From Flavobacteriales bacterium (GTDB taxonomy: Bacteria; Bacteroidota; Bacteroidia; JACJYZ01): a DNA stretch of 41,627 bases. Every line of letters begins with the position of its first letter. Within the stretch, counting starts at the first letter, position 1. The notes beneath the pieces are model-generated. The model saw only the letters and a list, made by a program, of their open reading frames with translations, was not told the origin of the DNA and ran no database searches. The stretch is taken from positions 1 to 41,627 of the forward strand of contig JAGQZQ010000020.1 of assembly GCA_020435415.1 (NCBI GenBank), in the 5' to 3' direction. The position numbers and the translations under genes were made by a program. Shown here in pieces: positions 10,268 to 35,793 of the stretch.

Positions 10268-10462
10268 ATGAAATGTTCTGAACTGTACCGAATACTCATT
10301 CGAGATGGATGGGTTCCTTACGCACAAAAAGGCTCACATGTCAAGATGAAACATGATAAGAAAAACGGGATCATCGTTTTTCCCAATCACGGTAGTTCGG
10401 AATTGGGAAAAGGACTGGCCTTGAAAATACTGAAGGATGCAGGTTTAAGGAAAGATATATGA
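10268..10462 (+). CDS. hicA: type II toxin HicA (mRNA interferase)
   Basis: 64 residues, normal HicA length, with a double-stranded-RNA-binding-like fold. The catalytic histidine is H24 in AQKGSHVKMKH, and the C-terminal part NHGSSELGKGLALKILKDAGL-like region follows the family pattern. HicA degrades mRNA and is neutralised by HicB. The start ATG at 10268 comes soon after the promoter/operator palindrome. Its stop overlaps the hicB start (ATGA), so toxin and antitoxin are translationally coupled, with the toxin first, as is usual for hicAB. Confidence 0.93.
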   Translation: MKCSELYRILIRDGWVPYAQKGSHVKMKHDKKNGIIVFPNHGSSELGKGLALKILKDAGLRKDI

Positions 10463-10857
10463 TGACTAAGAGAGGTAAAATAACTTTGACCGTGGAAAAA
10501 ACCGATACCGGGTTTTCTGCATATACAAATTCCTATCCGATCTTTACAACCGGCAAAACGGTGCAGGAGCTTATGCGCAATGCTGTGGAAGCCGTAGCAC
10601 TCTATTTTGAGGATAAAGCGACTCCGGTAAGGCAAAGCGACCTGAAGTTCGAGATTGACATCCGCCAATTCTTCCAATACTACAAAGTGCTGAATGCAAA
10701 GTTCCTTGCCGAAAAAATAGGCATGAACGCTACTCTGCTCTCCCAATATGTACAAGGCCATAAAAAACCATCGGAAAGGCAAACAGAAAAGATACTGGCT
10801 GGAATCCATCAGATCGGACTGGAATTGTCACGGATCAATTTGTTTTACAAGGATTAG
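10459..10857 (+). CDS. hicB: HicB antitoxin with C-terminal HTH
   Basis: 132 residues. The N-terminal ~70 residues form the HicB partial RNase-H-like domain (LTVEKTDTGFSAYTNSYPI, then a helix with TVQELMRNAVEAVALYFED). The C-terminal half is a helix-turn-helix of XRE type (FLAEKIGMNATLLSQYVQG), consistent with DNA binding and autoregulation. The gene starts at ATG 10459 or at the next codon, 10462, overlapping the hicA stop. It neutralises HicA and probably represses the operon through the palindrome at 10213-10236. No terminator is visible downstream. Confidence 0.92.
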   Translation: MMTKRGKITLTVEKTDTGFSAYTNSYPIFTTGKTVQELMRNAVEAVALYFEDKATPVRQSDLKFEIDIRQFFQYYKVLNAKFLAEKIGMNATLLSQYVQGHKKPSERQTEKILAGIHQIGLELSRINLFYKD

Positions 10858-10913
10858 GAGTGGCGTTGTGTAATTCGTTTTCCGTAGCTTACCAAATTCC
10901 ACGATATGTTGGG

Positions 10914-10930
10914 CGAAGGTTGCACCTTCG
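10914..10930. repeat. CGAAGGT palindrome, intergenic
   Basis: CGAAGGT-TGC-ACCTTCG is a perfect 7-bp inverted repeat in the 362-base gap after hicB. Near-identical palindromes occur inside both copies of the tandem repeat at 24239-24255 and 24506-24522. The rest of the gap up to 11026 shows no other structure that I can support. Confidence 0.7.
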
Positions 10931-11026
10931 TCTTTCTATCCTGAGCATCAGCTAAGAATGTATAAGCAATGACGACTACAGGTTGCAAATCAGCACTAGT
11001 TGAATATACCTGAATTTTATATCAGT

Positions 11027-11311
11027 ATGATGAGATATACAGCAGTATTATTGTTGTTCGTGCTAATGGGTTGTGGACTAAAAGACAGGTTTGCTCAAGC
11101 CGAGAGAGCTTGGCTGCTGAAGGCTTCCCCTGATTGATGGTAGTTAATAGGAGAACGTCAGTTTGTGAATGCTTCTCTTTATATTTACCCCGTTTATAGG
11201 CTAATACGGATCTTTCCCAATGAATCCTTTCTGGACCCGGCTGATTATACGTACTACACTTCGATCCAAAGACAAGAAGAAGGGAGTCAGAAAAAAGTAT
11301 TCCGATTATAG
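11027..11311 (+). pseudogene. decayed small lipoprotein gene with in-frame stops
   Basis: An ATG at 11027 opens a 36-residue peptide with a lipoprotein signal (hydrophobic core VLLLFVLMGC, lipobox Cys at residue 16), ending at TGA 11135. A TAG follows two codons later. From 11144 the same frame is open for 55 more codons and reads as plausible protein (FVNASLYIYPVYRLIRIFP, then NESFLDPADYTYYTS) until TAG 11309. The simplest reading is a ~94-codon lipoprotein gene broken by two nonsense codons. Alternatives are a genuine 36-residue lipoprotein followed by chance coding-like sequence, or compensating indels. Its 3' half overlaps the YitT start in another frame. Confidence 0.45.
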
Positions 11312-12197
11312 ACTTGCCAAAGGATACAGGGAGTTCACCATACTGTTCAGGCGTAATGTCAAGGATTTTCTGTTGGTTACTTCCGGAATCTTCCTGGCCG
11401 CATTCGGGTTTAAAGGGTTTCTTCTTACGAACAACTTTATCGATGGTGGCGCCACCGGTGTATCATTGTTGCTGGCTGCCCTCACAGACATACCTCTTCA
11501 TTATCTTATTATAGGTGTTAATGCGCCATTTATCCTGCTTGGTGCAAAAGTGGTGAATAAAGCATTCGCCTTCAAAACAGCGCTTGCTATTTCGGGATTG
11601 GCCATTTGCCTTGCTCTTGTTGAATTTCCTAATGTAACCAATGATAACCTCCTGGTGGCTGTGTTTGGAGGCTTCTTCCTTGGCGCCGGTATCGGATTTG
11701 CCATACGAGGTGGTGCAGTGATTGATGGTACCGAGGTACTTGCCATCTTTCTGGGCAGAAAATTCGGGGTGACCATCGGCGATGTAATTATCGTCATCAA
11801 TGCCCTGATCTTTGCCGCTGCAGCTTATCTCCTCGGCGTGGATATCGCCCTGTATTCCATGATCACATACCTGGCTGCATCTAAAACCCTGGATTTCATC
11901 GTCGAAGGAATTGAAGAATATATCGGAGTGACCATAGTTTCCTCACACAGCGAGGATATTCGTCAGATGATCATCCATAAGCTCGGTCGGGGTGTTACAA
12001 TTTATAGCGGGAAAAGGGGATATGGCAAACGCGGCGATACTTCGGAAGTTGAGATTATTTATACGGTCATTACCCGACTGGAGGTGAACAAACTCAATAC
12101 AGAGATCGAGAAGATCGAACCTTCTGCTTTTGTTGTGATGCACGGTGTGAAGGACACCAGGGGTGGGATGATCAAGAAGAGGCCGCTGAAACACTAA
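11220..12197 (+). CDS. YitT family membrane protein (DUF161 + DUF2179)
   Basis: 325 residues. After a basic N-terminus, the first membrane helix starts at about residue 48 (VKDFLLVTSGIFLAAFGFKG), followed by LLTNNFIDGGATGVSLLL, the hallmark of the YitT/DUF161 family, and further helices to residue ~225. The C-terminal ~90 residues form the cytosolic DUF2179 domain (VTIYSGKRGYGKRG, then VMHGVKDTRGGMIKKRPL). The family's transport role is not settled. The first ~40 residues are unusually basic and overlap the remnant of another reading frame; no other ATG, GTG or TTG precedes the first helix, so ATG 11220 is kept with reservation. Confidence 0.9.
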   Translation: MNPFWTRLIIRTTLRSKDKKKGVRKKYSDYRLAKGYREFTILFRRNVKDFLLVTSGIFLAAFGFKGFLLTNNFIDGGATGVSLLLAALTDIPLHYLIIGVNAPFILLGAKVVNKAFAFKTALAISGLAICLALVEFPNVTNDNLLVAVFGGFFLGAGIGFAIRGGAVIDGTEVLAIFLGRKFGVTIGDVIIVINALIFAAAAYLLGVDIALYSMITYLAASKTLDFIVEGIEEYIGVTIVSSHSEDIRQMIIHKLGRGVTIYSGKRGYGKRGDTSEVEIIYTVITRLEVNKLNTEIEKIEPSAFVVMHGVKDTRGGMIKKRPLKH

Positions 12198-21177: not shown

Positions 21178-23973
21178 ATGGACAAGTTGTCGCTCATTTT
21201 GCCCCTATTCGGTATAGTAGCACTCTTATTTGTTATTTGGAAAAGCGCCTGGGTATCCAAGCAGGAAGTCGGCGGAGAAAGAATGGCTCGAATAGCCGCC
21301 AACATTGCCAAAGGTGCAATGGCATTTTTGAAAGCGGAGTACAAGATACTCAGCATTTTTGTGATAGGTGTTGCCATATTGCTGGCCTTTAAAGGCATGA
21401 GCGAAGGTGAGTCTTCCAACCCTTTGGTGGCATTGTCGTTTGTGGTGGGTGCACTTTGTTCCGCCCTGGCAGGTTACCTGGGTATGCGTGTGGCAACCAA
21501 AGCCAATGTACGTACCACCAATGCAGCACGTACCTCCCTGGGTAAGGCCCTGGAAGTGGCTTTTGCAGGTGGTTCCGTTATGGGCATGGGCGTTGTTGGT
21601 CTGGGTGTGCTTGGTTTGAGCGGCCTCTTCTTATTGTATACAGAGCTTTGGGGTGTTTCTTTCGACTCGATTGGTAAAGTATTGAATGTATTGGCAGGAT
21701 TTTCACTTGGGGCATCTTCCATTGCCCTGTTTGCACGTGTTGGCGGCGGTATTTATACCAAGGCTGCCGATGTTGGTGCGGACCTCGTCGGAAAGGTTGA
21801 AGCCGGTATCCCTGAGGACCATCCGTTGAACCCTGCTACCATTGCCGACAACGTTGGTGACAACGTAGGTGATGTGGCCGGTATGGGTGCTGATCTTTTT
21901 GAATCCTATGTCGGTTCCATTATCGGTACCATGGTATTGGGTGCCGCCTTTGTGGGTATTCCGGAGTTCGCCGGACAGTTTAATGGTCTCGGAGCTGTGT
22001 TGCTGCCAATGGCGCTCGCAGCTGTAGGTATCATCATGTCCATACTCGGAACTTTCTTTGTGAAGGTGAAGGAAGGTGGTAATCCGCATACCGCACTGAA
22101 CATTGGTGAATTCGGATCTGCTATTGCGATGATCATCGCATCCTATTTTATTATCGACAAATTGTTGCCGGAAACCTGGACTACAGGCGGAACGGTATAT
22201 ACTTCCATGGGTGTGTTTCTGAGTACCATTGCAGGTCTGGTGGCCGGACTGGGTATCGGAAAGATCACTGAATATTATACAGGTACCGGTACACCACCCG
22301 TAAAATCCATCGTGCGTCAGTCGGTGACAGGTTCTGCCACCAACATCATCGCCGGATTAGGTGTGGGTATGATGTCTACCGCTATTCCTGTTATTCTTAT
22401 TGCGGCAGCCATCCTGGTGTCATATCAGTTCGCCGGACTTTATGGTATTGCCATTGCTGCCGTGGGTATGTTGGCCAACACTGGTATTCAGCTTGCCGTT
22501 GATGCATACGGACCGATCTCCGATAATGCAGGTGGTATCGCTGAAATGAGTGAACTTCCCAAAGATGTTCGTAAGATCACGGATAAACTGGATGCTGTGG
22601 GTAATACCACCGCTGCCATCGGTAAAGGATTTGCCATCGGTTCGGCTGCGCTTACCGCACTGGCCCTGTTTGCTGCCTTCATGCAACAAGCGAACATCAC
22701 TTCCATTGACATCTCACAACCTACCGTAATGGCAGGTCTTTTCCTCGGAGGAATGTTGCCATTCGTTTTCTCTGCCATGGCGATGAATGCTGTTGGTAGA
22801 GCTGCCATGGCCATGATCGAAGAGGTACGTCGCCAGTTCCGTGATATCCCTGCCCTGAAAGCTGCGCTTAATGTAATGAACAGTCCTGCAAATAAGGATA
22901 AGGAGGTTTCCGAATGGAGTGAAGTGGATCAAAAAACATTCCACGCAGCGGATGGTGTTGCGGAATATGACAAGTGTGTGGCGATCTCTACCAAAGCATC
23001 TATCAAAGAAATGGTGGTGCCCGGATTGCTGGCCATCGCCGCTCCTGTAGCGACCGGTTTCCTGGGTGGTGCTGAAATGCTTGGCGGTCTGTTGGCTGGT
23101 GTAACCGTTTCCGGCGTATTGATGGCCATCTTCCAGTCCAACGCAGGTGGTGCCTGGGACAATGCCAAGAAAATGTTTGAAGAAGGTGTGGACATCAATG
23201 GTGAGAAACACTACAAAGGTTCCGAAGCGCATAAAGCCGCTGTAGTTGGTGACACCGTTGGAGATCCTTTTAAAGACACTTCCGGCCCGTCATTGAATAT
23301 CCTTCTGAAGCTGATGTCCGTGGTGGCCCTCGTTATCGCACCGAGTATCGCATTGGATTTGAAGTCTGTTGATACAAATGAGTCCGCAGCACCCATTGAG
23401 AATAATATGGAGCAAAGCAGCCAGATGCCGGTCCTTCCGGACGGAAGCTATATGTTCTCCACGGAGCAGGCGTCTGTTCAGTGGACGGGAAACAAACCCA
23501 CCGGATCACACCACGGAAATGTACCGCTGGCAGAAGGGACACTTATAGTGAAGGACGGCCTGCCGCATGCAGGCACCTTCACACTGGACATGAAGTCCAT
23601 TACCTGTGAAGACATCACAGACCCCGAAAAAAACAAAGACCTCGTCGATCATCTGAAAGGCGAGGATTTTTTTTATGTGGAAAATTACCCCACGGCAATA
23701 CTTGAAGTCGTAAGCGCAGCCACCAATGATAATCTGAGATTCGGTGTTAATGCAGCTATGACCATCAAGGGCATTCAGCAAAGTGATGTTGAGCTTCCCA
23801 TTACAATCCAGCAGAAAGAAGGTGGTACCATCATCGCAGAAACGGAATTCCAATTCGACCGCACCAAGTTCGACATCAAGTATAAGTCGAAATCTTTCTT
23901 TCCTGATCTTGCAGATAAATTTATCTATGACGGGGTGAAAGTGAGGATCAGGATGATTGGACAGAAGGTTTAG
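21178..23973 (+). CDS. hppA: K+-dependent membrane pyrophosphatase fused to a C-terminal YceI domain
   Basis: 931 residues in one uninterrupted frame. Residues ~1-727 are an ion-pumping membrane pyrophosphatase: many hydrophobic helices, the pyrophosphate site [19 protein letters not shown] (first Asp at 198), [15 protein letters not shown], and [15 protein letters not shown] near the end. [10 protein letters not shown] with Ala at 479 is the K+-dependent signature; K+-independent enzymes have Lys there. Whether it pumps Na+ or H+ cannot be settled by eye. After the last helix ([13 protein letters not shown]) comes a ~27-residue Ser/Asn/Glu linker, then a complete YceI lipid-binding-like domain at ~755-931 ([51 protein letters not shown]). 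Because the C-terminus of these pumps faces the periplasm, the YceI domain should lie there too, where free YceI proteins act. The fusion is discussed under findings. Confidence 0.94.
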
Positions 23974-23974
23974 A

Positions 23975-24269
23975 GTTTCTGGTTTCTAGTTTGCATTGCC
24001 CGCTGAAGCTTTAGCGGAGGTGGGTGGTTTGAGGTTGTTCCGCTGCGTGGTTGGCTTCCGTTTTTCAGAATGACATTTATTGCCAACCGGAACTGGTTAA
24101 AGGTTTAAGGTTTAAAGTTGCCCACTATTAGCCTGATGTGAGCGATGTCTGATGTCCACTGTCTGTATTCTATTAGCTATACACCAAACACTTCCGGGGC
24201 ATTTTCAGGGAGTAGCTGAAAGCTACAGAATAACCCGACGAAGGTTCAACCTTCGCCGAACGCGGGCGG
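23975..24269. repeat. structured tandem repeat, unit 1
   Basis: First of two ~90% identical units in the 620-base gap after hppA. It begins GTTTCTGGTTTCTAGTTTG and carries GGTTGGC...GCCAACC, the hairpin GTAGCT-GAA-AGCTAC (24212-24226) and the palindrome CGAAGGTT-C-AACCTTCG (24239-24255). It contains ~39 extra bases (23994-24032), including CCGCT...AGCGG, that unit 2 lacks. No credible coding sequence. Confidence 0.85.
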
Positions 24270-24279
24270 AAAGTTTAAA

Positions 24280-24536
24280 GTTTCTGGTTTCTAGTTTGTG
24301 GTTGTTCCGTTGCGTGGTTGGCTTCCGTTTTTCAGAATGACATTTGTAGCCAACCGGAACTGGTTAAAGGTTTAAGATTTAAAGTTGCCCACCATTAGCC
24401 TGATGTGAGCGCTGTCTGATGTCCACTGTCCGTTTTCCATTAGCTATGCACCAAACGCTTCCGAGACATTTTCAGGGAGTAGCTGAAAGTTACAGGATAG
24501 CCCGACGAAGGTTCAACCTTCGCCGAACGCGGGCAG
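24280..24536. repeat. structured tandem repeat, unit 2
   Basis: Second unit, about 267-268 bases downstream of unit 1 and in the same orientation. It keeps all three hairpins of unit 1: the GTAGCT stem has a C-to-T change that still allows a G-U pair, and the CGAAGGTT palindrome at 24506-24522 is unchanged. It ends about 60 bases before the stop of the dNK gene on the other strand. Confidence 0.85.
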
Positions 24537-24563
24537 GGGATCTCTTGGAGCCTCTGGGGATGT

Positions 24564-24597
24564 GACTAACTACTATCTACCAGGTACTACCTACTAT
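24564..24597. repeat. TAGTAG-type short repeat, copy 3 (overlaps a stop codon)
   Basis: Read on the minus strand it is TAGTAGGTAGTACC followed by TAGATAGTAGTTAGT, and its first TAG is the stop codon of the deoxynucleoside kinase gene. Confidence 0.75.
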
Positions 24598-25214
24598 TTC
24601 TCAAACAACCCGTGTACTTCCCCATCGATACGCTGGATGATCTTACCCAGGTCTTCCTTTGATTCGGGGAACTTGTTGTCATCTACATCTACCGTGATCA
24701 TTTTGCCACGGTCATAGGATGTGATCCAGGCTTCGTACCTTTCGTTGAGGCGTTTCAGGTAGTCCAGGCGGATGGTTTCTTCGTATGGCCGCCCACGCTT
24801 CTGGATCTGACTTACCAGGGTGGGTACGGACGCGCGAAGGTAAATCAGCAGGTCGGGTGGACTGATCAGTCCGTCGATGAGCTGGAAAAGTTGTCCGTAT
24901 GTTTCAAAATCCCGCGTAGTCATCAGACCCATGGCGTGAAGGTTCGGTGCGAAGATGTGTGCATCTTCATAGATCGTGCGGTCCTGGATCACATTCTTCC
25001 CTGAGGTATGAATGTCGCGGATGTTACTGAACCTGTTGGTGAGGAAGTAAATCTGCAGATTGAATGACCAGCGCTGCATATCATCGTAGAAATTGTTCAG
25101 GTATGGATTTTCATCCGCATCCTCATAATGGGCTTCCCATTTATAGTGTTTGGAGAGGAGAGAGGTGAGTGTGGTTTTTCCGGAACCGATGTTTCCTGCT
25201 ACGGCAATGTGCAT
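24594..25214 (-). CDS. deoxynucleoside kinase
   Basis: 206 residues from ATG 25214; an upstream in-frame TTG at 25223 is unlikely. The P-loop AVAGNIGSGKTTL starts right after the initiator. The family motifs EDADENPYLNNFYDD (substrate-binding Glu region), IQDRTIYEDAHIFA (the DR[ST] motif) and the arginine-rich lid QKRGRPYEE are present. The enzyme phosphorylates deoxynucleosides in salvage; specificity (dA/dG or dC type) cannot be assigned by eye. It is the last of a run of minus-strand genes from sppA, and its TAG stop begins a TAGTAG repeat. Confidence 0.92.
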   Translation of the reverse strand: MHIAVAGNIGSGKTTLTSLLSKHYKWEAHYEDADENPYLNNFYDDMQRWSFNLQIYFLTNRFSNIRDIHTSGKNVIQDRTIYEDAHIFAPNLHAMGLMTTRDFETYGQLFQLIDGLISPPDLLIYLRASVPTLVSQIQKRGRPYEETIRLDYLKRLNERYEAWITSYDRGKMITVDVDDNKFPESKEDLGKIIQRIDGEVHGLFEK

Positions 25215-25296
25215 AAGCGTCAATTAATGATGGTCTAAAATACAAATTATCCCTTAGGTCCGTACACCAAATCAGGCCTATTTCAAGGCATCCTGA

Positions 25297-29352: not shown

Positions 29353-31116
29353 TTACTCGATGTCGATGTTGTAAGGGATCAATGCTTGCACACCTTTGGT
29401 GTTTTTCAGAAAATCAATGGTCTTTACATGTTTGCTGAGCGGGCCTAGCTGTTGTTCCAGGGAGTATTGGGTCATACTTCCCGACCAGTCTTCCATCAGT
29501 TTTTCCAAAAACTCTTTTTGTTCCGGAAGATCCACGATGCGATATGACTCCAGCTTGGCCATATCCGCAGCGACCTCGACGGCCATGTCCAGGTCTCCGA
29601 ACATATCCACCAGGCCTATCTTCCTTGCGCTTGAACCACTCCAAACACGACCCTGTCCGATGCTGTCCACCAGTGCTTTTTTAATGCCTCTTCCGTCCGA
29701 CACTTTTTCAAGGAAATCATCATAAATGAACTCAACCATATCCTGTATGGCTTGTCGTTCACGGTAGTACAACGGTCGGGAAATATTGCCGAAATCCGCA
29801 TACGGATTGGTGTTCACCGTGTCAAAGTCGATACCGAGTTTCTCCTCCATCAACTGGCGAAGGTTGGGCAGGATGCCGAATACACCGATGGAACCTGTGA
29901 TGGTAAACGGACTGGCAACGATCGTATCGGCGGCACATGCGATATAGTACCCTCCTGAAGCGGCCACGTCTCCCATGGAAACCACAAGGGGTTTCTCAAT
30001 GCGTGCCAGCACGAGTTCACGCCATATGACATCTGATGCCAGGGCGCTTCCTCCTGGTGAGTTGATGCGCAGCACAATTGCTTTGACCGATGGGTCTTTG
30101 CGCGCGCTTCGAATGGTTGAAGCCATCTTGGCTGATCCCATGGTCTCAGCGTCGTAAGCCTTCCCTCCCTGAATGGTGCCCATGGCATAGATCACCGCGA
30201 TCTTATCTTTCGGGCGTGGTGTTTGTATATGTCCCGGCGCTTTCAGGAAACGATCGAGGGAAACGAGATATAGTGTGCCGTCTTCATCCAGTCCGCAGTT
30301 TTCCTTGAGTACATCCATCACCTGATCTTCATACAGCAGATCATCCACAAGGTGGTGTTTGAGTGCATCGTCAGGGCGACGGATCAATATGGAGTCTGCA
30401 ATATTATTAAGCGTACCGGCGGGGATGTCGCGGCTCATAGAAATATCACCGGTGAGCTGTTCCCAGATGGAGTGTACGAGCACATAATTCTGCTCCCGGT
30501 TGGCGGGGCTCATGCTGTCCAGCATGAACGGTTCAACAGCACTTTTGAACTGTCCATGGCGGATCACCTGAATATCCACGCCCAACTTTTCAAGCGCTCT
30601 TTTGTAGAATTGCACCTGCGCACTCAGCCCTTTGAACTCGATGACACCGGCGGGATTCAGAAACAGGTCATTGGCCACTGAAGCCAGGTAATAAGATTTC
30701 TGCGTATAGATCTCACTATAACCTACAATGAATTTGCCGGTGGCCTTGAAATTGATCAGGGCATTCCGGAGTTCTTCCACAGATGCCATCCCGGCTTGCA
30801 GCAATGAAACATCCAGGTAAATTCCTTTGATCTTCTCATCTTCTCCGGCATACTTGATAGCGCGAATGATATCATGTAAACCATATATCTCTCCCTGGGG
30901 AAGTCCGTTTATTCCGATCCTGTCGAAGGGATTATTTGAACCCCGGTCATGGATGGGATATGGAAGGGTGAGGTGCAGGACTGACGGATCTTCCAGGTGT
31001 ACCGCTTCTTTCTGACCTAAGGTGGCAACAATGCCAATAAACACGAGGAACATCAAGCCTATGACAATAGAGATTCCCACTACGGACGCCAATGTGAATT
31101 TCAGAAATTGCTTCAT
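29353..31116 (-). CDS. sppA: signal peptide peptidase SppA, 67K type
   Basis: 587 residues from ATG 31116 (MKQFLKFTLASVVGIS), which gives an N-terminal membrane anchor; the frame extends 11 codons upstream without a better start. The two-domain architecture of the long SppA is present. The predicted catalytic dyad is K140 in YTQKSYYLASVAND in the first half and S387 in DVAASGGYYIACAAD in the second. It is a membrane-bound serine protease that digests cleaved signal peptides. A weak TAATATTG box lies ~30 bases upstream. polX follows after 4 bases, so the two are likely in one transcript. Confidence 0.95.
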   Translation of the reverse strand: MKQFLKFTLASVVGISIVIGLMFLVFIGIVATLGQKEAVHLEDPSVLHLTLPYPIHDRGSNNPFDRIGINGLPQGEIYGLHDIIRAIKYAGEDEKIKGIYLDVSLLQAGMASVEELRNALINFKATGKFIVGYSEIYTQKSYYLASVANDLFLNPAGVIEFKGLSAQVQFYKRALEKLGVDIQVIRHGQFKSAVEPFMLDSMSPANREQNYVLVHSIWEQLTGDISMSRDIPAGTLNNIADSILIRRPDDALKHHLVDDLLYEDQVMDVLKENCGLDEDGTLYLVSLDRFLKAPGHIQTPRPKDKIAVIYAMGTIQGGKAYDAETMGSAKMASTIRSARKDPSVKAIVLRINSPGGSALASDVIWRELVLARIEKPLVVSMGDVAASGGYYIACAADTIVASPFTITGSIGVFGILPNLRQLMEEKLGIDFDTVNTNPYADFGNISRPLYYRERQAIQDMVEFIYDDFLEKVSDGRGIKKALVDSIGQGRVWSGSSARKIGLVDMFGDLDMAVEVAADMAKLESYRIVDLPEQKEFLEKLMEDWSGSMTQYSLEQQLGPLSKHVKTIDFLKNTKGVQALIPYNIDIE

Positions 31117-35744: not shown

Positions 35745-35748
35745 GAGA

Positions 35749-35793
35749 AAGTTTGAGGTTTGGGGTTTAAAGTTTGAGGTTTAAAGTTTGAGG
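35749..35793. repeat. GTTTGAGG/GTTTAAA tandem repeat
   Basis: Alternating GTTTGAGG, GTTTGGG and GTTTAAA units fill 45 bases directly upstream of the purL promoter box. The same words occur at 24104-24120 and 24271-24284, so this is a dispersed short repeat. The remaining bases to 35995 show nothing else that I can support. Confidence 0.7.

Follow-up and report, generated by a model that had tools for sequence, protein, structure and literature searches.

The described systems closest to this locus are the REP sequences and the REP-associated tyrosine transposases (RAYTs). The accessible part of PMC3733652 defines GTAG and CGTC REPs and describes some RAYT-like genes that have inverted repeats of a double palindromic kind; the CGTC REP is given there as an unpaired CGTC at one end, a stem starting with AT and a CCA tail, and such repeats are reported from Bacteroidetes among other phyla, and the paper found no transposase that is linked to them. 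As described in the available sections of PMC6006769, RAYT subclass 2.6 (group 5) is found mostly in Bacteroidetes and is defined, besides this phylum, by the motifs NH[LIV]H, WQ and YIH[QN]NP, an HUH-Y spacing near 82 and a C-terminal SS. These sections further state that the genes are flanked by 'atypical secondary structures' without GT[AG]G, copies of which occur elsewhere in the genome, and that the subclass shows no conservation of the region which reads GTAG in E. coli TnpA-REP. TnpA-REP processes single-stranded REP in vitro according to the available text of PMC8266576.

Here we studied a window of 41,627 nt (the whole stretch of DNA analysed) from a Flavobacteriales bacterium, in which a first-pass annotation had pointed to a tandem duplication of a ~270-base structured, non-coding element. 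Very probably, each duplicated unit ends in a REP-type repeat, composed of two hairpins (H1 and H2) and an outer end AAC, which belongs to one RAYT of this genome (C30) and was caught in a separate local duplication.

A tandem duplication between convergent genes

The duplication was borne out by alignment, as 24027-24267 and 24294-24534 on the plus strand match over 241 bp without gaps at 93% identity and a start-to-start distance of 267 bp, and TRF gave a period of 267, 1.9 copies and a score of 897. It sits between the 3′ ends of two convergent genes, a membrane H+ pyrophosphatase that carries a YceI domain at its C-terminus (21178-23973, plus strand, 931 aa; PF03030 881 bits, PF04264 65 bits) and a deoxynucleoside kinase (24594-25223, minus strand; PF01712 185 bits). 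The pyrophosphatase ORF runs in frame into the YceI-like domain, either an unusual fusion or a run-on. A 35-bp repeat (D2, 89% identity) is present before unit 1 (23959-23993) and again between the units (24264-24298), and the direct repeat TTTCTGGTTTCTAGTTTG within it (23976-23993 at the left border and 24281-24298 between the units, both plus strand) is identical in both. Recombination of short direct repeats at the borders is the most likely origin of the duplication, in the simplest case through slippage or an unequal exchange involving the two copies of TTTCTGGTTTCTAGTTTG; the ~267-bp duplication would be a local event of its own that carried the REP along. Low-complexity DNA of the same kind as around the duplication also forms a short array of a GTTTGAGGTTTAAA unit at 35748-35793.

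The two units differ at 17 of 241 positions, and 13 of these differences are transitions. An unchanged palindrome and a stem substitution that keeps a G-U pair had been taken as a hint of selection on structure, but this hint is weak: 3 of 55 bases differ between the units in the dispersed part and 14 of 186 in the rest, and the REP bases are thus not clearly kept better than the remainder of the unit. The three hairpins named by the first-pass annotation are all present, and in unit 1 they are GGTTGGC/GCCAACC (24049-24055/24082-24088), GTAGCT/AGCTAC (24212-24217/24221-24226) and the palindrome CGAAGGTT/AACCTTCG (24239-24255). The first of them (24049-24088, plus strand) is not a dispersed repeat according to the own-genome and local searches.

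Three hairpins per unit would agree with a duplicated ~270-b structured non-coding RNA or riboswitch-like element, which the first-pass annotation had also considered, and the REP part of unit 1 does fold well as DNA (z = −3.57). Nevertheless we regard such an RNA as most unlikely, because the complete units, folded as RNA, do not differ from dinucleotide shuffles (z = −0.03 and −0.22, with +0.24 over the full 620 b), an Rfam scan of the window returned only a tRNA and no match in the duplication region, the non-REP part is not repeated elsewhere, and the location is between the 3′ ends of convergent genes. Among single REP copies folded as DNA and compared with shuffles, unit 2 gave z = −1.55 and six others −2.7 to −5.3. 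In unit 2 the G-T change leaves H1 absent from the predicted DNA fold, which further weakens the hint of selection on structure.

An additional stretch had been noted in unit 1 alone. It measures 38 b from the spacing (305 minus 267), contains CCGCT/AGCGG and corresponds to a second dispersed palindrome, CCCNCCGAAGCTTTAGCGAAGGNGGG, which has 18 own-genome sites with up to two mismatches and none for the reversed control; in the window the palindrome, CCCGCTGAAGCTTTAGCGGAGGTGGG, lies at 23999-24024 on the plus strand. One of its sites (L225) looks like part of a tRNA gene and may be a chance match. Over the sites L208-L225 this palindrome is often embedded in GTTTCTGGTTTCTAG-like low-complexity DNA, and its outer stem reads CCCTCC/GGAGGG or CCCGCC/GGCGGG, an exchange that looks compensatory.

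Only the 3′ end of each unit is dispersed

With 23960-24600 as query, the own genome yielded 54 matches at E ≤ 0.001, self included, and with one exception on C5 these fall on few modules: the last ~55 b of the units, the 'insertion' of unit 1, and low-complexity stretches such as TTTCTGGTTTCTAGTTTG, GGTTTAAGGTTTAAAG and ACTACTACC. The stretches 24037-24093 and 24123-24207 have no second place in the own genome at E ≤ 0.001 apart from one match on C5, which is 70% identical to the unit-2 counterpart of 24037-24093 and the best part of which is low-complexity. A local search of the fetched pieces showed one further match, 33 b long and TGTCTGATGTC-like, on C62. The duplicated unit is not the element, and only its last ~50 b (24212-24261 and 24479-24528) are dispersed. 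That the whole 267-b unit is a mobile element (MITE) inserted twice would fit its two copies and the dispersed repeat at its 3′ end; it is scarcely credible, however, because no other genomic place carries the unit, the matches being the REP, the second palindrome, low-complexity DNA and the single 70% match on C5, and because the other REP copies have different neighbours with a sharp boundary at AAC. Hence the earlier suggestion of a non-autonomous mobile repeat stands for the ~50-b two-hairpin 3′ piece and falls for the ~270-b unit.

The 3′ module alone gave at least 46 own-genome matches at E ≤ 0.01, with 40 of 43 first-look candidates scored. For the alignment three of the 46 copies were dropped and a pair of identical ones was entered as a single row, and a covariance model (R1) was built from the resulting 42. 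In the own 3.5-Mb genome R1 detects at least 65 places at E ≤ 1, 60 of them at E ≤ 0.001, and the number is a lower bound because 150 of 1397 candidates were scored; the check for other genomic copies, which had been proposed with the original observation, was thus positive for the 50-b piece. BLAST of the 3′ module against 59 other genomes of the class, all outside the host's family, gave no match, nor did a plasmid search with the repeat, and an exact 26-mer of the repeat had no match in the genome contigs searched.

The consensus reads GTAGCT-loop-AGCTAC (H1), a linker of ~10 b with a nearly invariant ATA, CGAAGGTGCAACCTTCG (H2) and CC[TGC]AAC. Over the 42 copies the information content drops from 2 bits at AAC to noise at the next base, and while the H2 core is the search pattern itself, the AAC and ATA positions lie outside that pattern. 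By this boundary the copy in unit 1 occupies 24212-24261 (plus strand, 69.8 bits), with H1 at 24212-24226, the linker, H2 at 24239-24255 and the end ..CCGAAC. The copy in unit 2, in which H1 is weakened by a G-T pair, occupies 24479-24528 (plus strand, 68.8 bits), and a third copy of the window lies at 10905-10960 (minus strand, 52.3 bits) between the ORFs 10459-10857 and 11220-12197. Sub-types of the repeat exist: in many pairs one arm has AAAGCGGAACGCTTT as its H1, a further sub-type is GTAGCAAATGCTAC, and H2 reads CGTAGGCGCAGCCTACG on C137. Fifteen of the 65 matches span more than 70 b, and those examined do so because their H2 loop holds a ~28-b insert that has a TCCCGG..CCGGGA stem of its own. 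This inserted stem is conserved across different sub-types (L037:893-978, L037:1972-2057, L030:1653-1737 and others).

Repeat copies flank one RAYT gene of the genome

Four Y1 transposases were found in the genome with PF01797, and NCBIfam NF047646 (cut-off 80) names three of them as REP-associated tyrosine transposase: C30 (111.2 bits), C55 (99.2 bits) and C140 (96.2 bits). The C30 RAYT (ORF at 29379-29987) has the HUH motif NHIH and the tyrosine motif YIHNNP 84 residues apart, YSSARC, and WT where WQ is expected, and is apparently of 'subclass 2.6'; the C55 and C140 RAYTs have SHLH with YIHANP and YIHMNP, respectively, at a spacing of 85. A PDB sequence search with the RAYT returned only TnpA-REP 4er8, at E = 0.095.

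Two repeat copies stand on each side of the C30 RAYT, symmetric and facing outward. The copies at this locus (L034:1691-2744) are doubled in direct orientation, 120 b apart on either side, perhaps by nested insertion. The C55 RAYT has different inverted ends, AGCCCGGACGRGACGTCCGCGCCAGC, with a score of 48 where none of 50 shuffles exceeds 34, and one R1 copy is located farther off in the opposite orientation. The flanks of this gene (L057) carry another type of REP, in which CGCCAGC comes after CGGACGRGACGTCCG, and therefore different RAYTs of the genome have different repeats. The C140 RAYT, at a contig end, has no adjoining R1 copy, the nearest match being at 2540-2598. Because R1 copies flank C30, C55 has other ends and C140 has none adjoining, we assign the repeat of the window to the C30 enzyme.

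Inverted pairs and intergenic placement

Neighbouring matches less than 200 b apart occur 21 times, and 18 of these are inverted ('-+'), with one each of '--', '++' and '+-'; altogether 40 of the 65 matches belong to such close pairs, and the gap between matches is 51-52 b in 9 of the 18 inverted pairs. In the inverted pairs H1 is inside and AAC outside, and the pairs therefore read GTTAGGCGAAGG..CCTTCGCCTAAC. The outer ends of inverted pairs, GTTAGGC..GCCTAAC, can be read as GTTRRRY and RYYYAAC and thus recall integron attC sites, but it is hardly conceivable that the repeats are attC sites, because the motifs stand in the reverse of the attC order, RYYYAAC is not matched by the GCCGAAC of the window subtype, and RAYT genes are flanked by copies. 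With the full model and filters off, no inverted partner was found for the window copies of units 1 and 2, which are probably singletons that lost, or never had, such a partner.

A crude ORF call places 51 of the 56 matches for which sequence was available in intergenic DNA (the remaining 9 of the 65 were left out of this count), whereas 2092 of 2800 random positions fall inside ORFs. Where an intergenic copy has ORFs to its left and right (47 cases), these are convergent in 18, divergent in 11 and tandem in 18. The convergent cases, the location of the window copies and one terminator-like match that overlaps H2 on the minus strand would be in line with a repeat that serves mainly to terminate transcription or to stabilise mRNA 3′ ends where genes converge, and whose link to a transposase is of no present importance. 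We consider this function as the main one very unlikely: terminators are as frequent as in shuffles (1 against a mean of 1.1), the divergent and tandem placements do not fit, and the inverted pairs and RAYT flanks are left unexplained. No promoters were found.

Two-hairpin ends at RAYT genes of other Bacteroidota

Of 295 genomes drawn from the class, own included, 114 match the C30 RAYT at E ≤ 1e-15. When 29 loci were searched for flanking R1 matches at E ≤ 1, four other loci had matches on both sides of the RAYT, namely L089 (71% identical RAYT), L090 (67%), L098 and, weakly, L109. At E ≤ 0.001, R1 is present in 3 of 20 other genomes (G233 with 4, G102 with 5 and G116 with 1), and all three are among the 9 picked for a close RAYT, with none among the 11 picked without one.

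Flanks were further compared at 80 named RAYT loci, 77 of which had usable flanks (three were short) and which come, by their record titles, from many Bacteroidota, e.g. Bacteroidales, Flavobacterium, Chryseobacterium and Algoriphagus; among 30 unnamed loci, three lacked an ORF carrying both motifs. Inverted repeats in the RAYT flanks exceeded all 50 dinucleotide shuffles at 60 of the 77 loci. Two adjacent hairpins are present in 93 of 154 proximal flanks, compared with 20 of 133 distal flanks and a mean of 7.2 of 154 in shuffles, and both flanks carry a double hairpin at 36 of 77 loci as against 0 of 77 when shuffled. Mismatched flanks from other species, used as a control for the inverted ends, were beaten at only 35 of 77 loci; we think that this control is poor because flanks of different species resemble each other, and it was supplemented by the dinucleotide shuffles and the distal flanks, in which double hairpins still occur at the above rate. 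A[AG]C follows H2 within 4 b in 51 of 93 flanks (background 523 of 3080), and the arms are diverse, with 77 different H1 and 74 different H2 sequences over the 93 flanks.

Covariation was counted in an R1-fitted alignment of 77 matches (72 distinct), in which, for 11 of 12 base pairs, one or more sequences have both partners changed, 80 cells in all; none of 500 shuffles reached 80 cells and slid versions gave 0-11, a strong count that rests on an alignment fitted to the model. In a MAFFT alignment of the own-genome copies, which misplaces the AAAGC variant of H1, covariation is weak, as three pairs changed on both sides, a number reached by 99 of 500 shuffles, and the score was reached by 27 of 500. 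The covariation check suggested by the first-pass annotation thus came out positive for the 50-b piece on the model-fitted alignment and weak on the other. Taking the relatives together, we incline, with some reserve, to the view that RAYTs of the group that occurs across Bacteroidota recognise a composite end, made up of two hairpins in succession whose stems covary freely and of a conserved A[AG]C on the outside, unlike the GTAG plus one hairpin of E. coli and Pseudomonas, and that REPIN populations on this basis are widespread and were overlooked since almost no sequence is common between species.

Comparison with described REP systems

We assign the repeat to the REP/REPIN type of a Bacteroidota RAYT because it is dispersed and intergenic, forms inverted pairs, flanks a RAYT gene and shows compensatory changes in both of its stems. 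Cleavage and mobility are likely by analogy with E. coli TnpA-REP and IS200/IS605 enzymes. The HUH/Tyr transposase would bind the hairpins in single-stranded DNA, would cut beside the conserved outer AAC end, and may mobilise, or may once have mobilised, inverted pairs (REPINs, ~160-190 b, GTTNGGC..GCCNAAC) into intergenic DNA. An odd intergenic duplication is thereby accounted for by a known, selfish-DNA-like system, and the more interesting part is that ends across Bacteroidota are built from two hairpins.

Canonical GTAG REPs and REPINs, as presented in the accessible parts of PMC3733652 and PMC3116915, are likewise short intergenic palindromes that form inverted pairs and flank RAYT genes; however, the present repeat has two hairpins instead of one, and its GTAG is inside the paired H1 stem and is missing from other copies and from relatives. 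The GTAG/GTGG foot that marks the GTAG super-family is neither conserved nor unpaired here, the first two positions being G in 24 and T in 26 of 42 copies (ungapped register), and it is not conserved in the relatives. Like the CGTC REPs of PMC3733652, the repeat has an H2 that on the other strand ends in CGTC, but, compared with what the available text gives for that super-family, the CG is paired within a CGAAGGT stem that has no AT start, the tag is 3′-terminal and a transposase gene is flanked. TIRtrons with double palindromic TIRs also have a RAYT-like gene between inverted, doubly palindromic repeats, a likeness that is drawn from the legend of figure 9 of PMC3733652 and not from sequences. 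In the main text of the openly accessible literature searched we found no described family with the sequence of this repeat.

The subclass 2.6 (Bertels group 5) REPtrons share with the present system the phylum (judged here from named relatives), RAYT motifs apart from the WT noted above for C30, flanking hairpins without a conserved GT[AG]G foot, and genomic copies, as far as the available part of PMC6006769 describes them. Their structures are called 'atypical' there, are weaker and were found by manual inspection, whereas here the two-hairpin design, covariation and inverted pairs were measured. The result is a model, two hairpins followed by A[AG]C, with which one can search for REPs that belong to Bacteroidota RAYTs and that the consulted text of this 2018 survey terms only atypical; because the region that reads GTAG is, according to the same text, not conserved in subclass 2.6, the two-hairpin model makes target choice testable. 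The REP/REPIN/RAYT framework, into which the repeat fits, was known, and what is new relative to the available text of PMC3733652, PMC6006769 and PMC8266576 is the two-hairpin rule.
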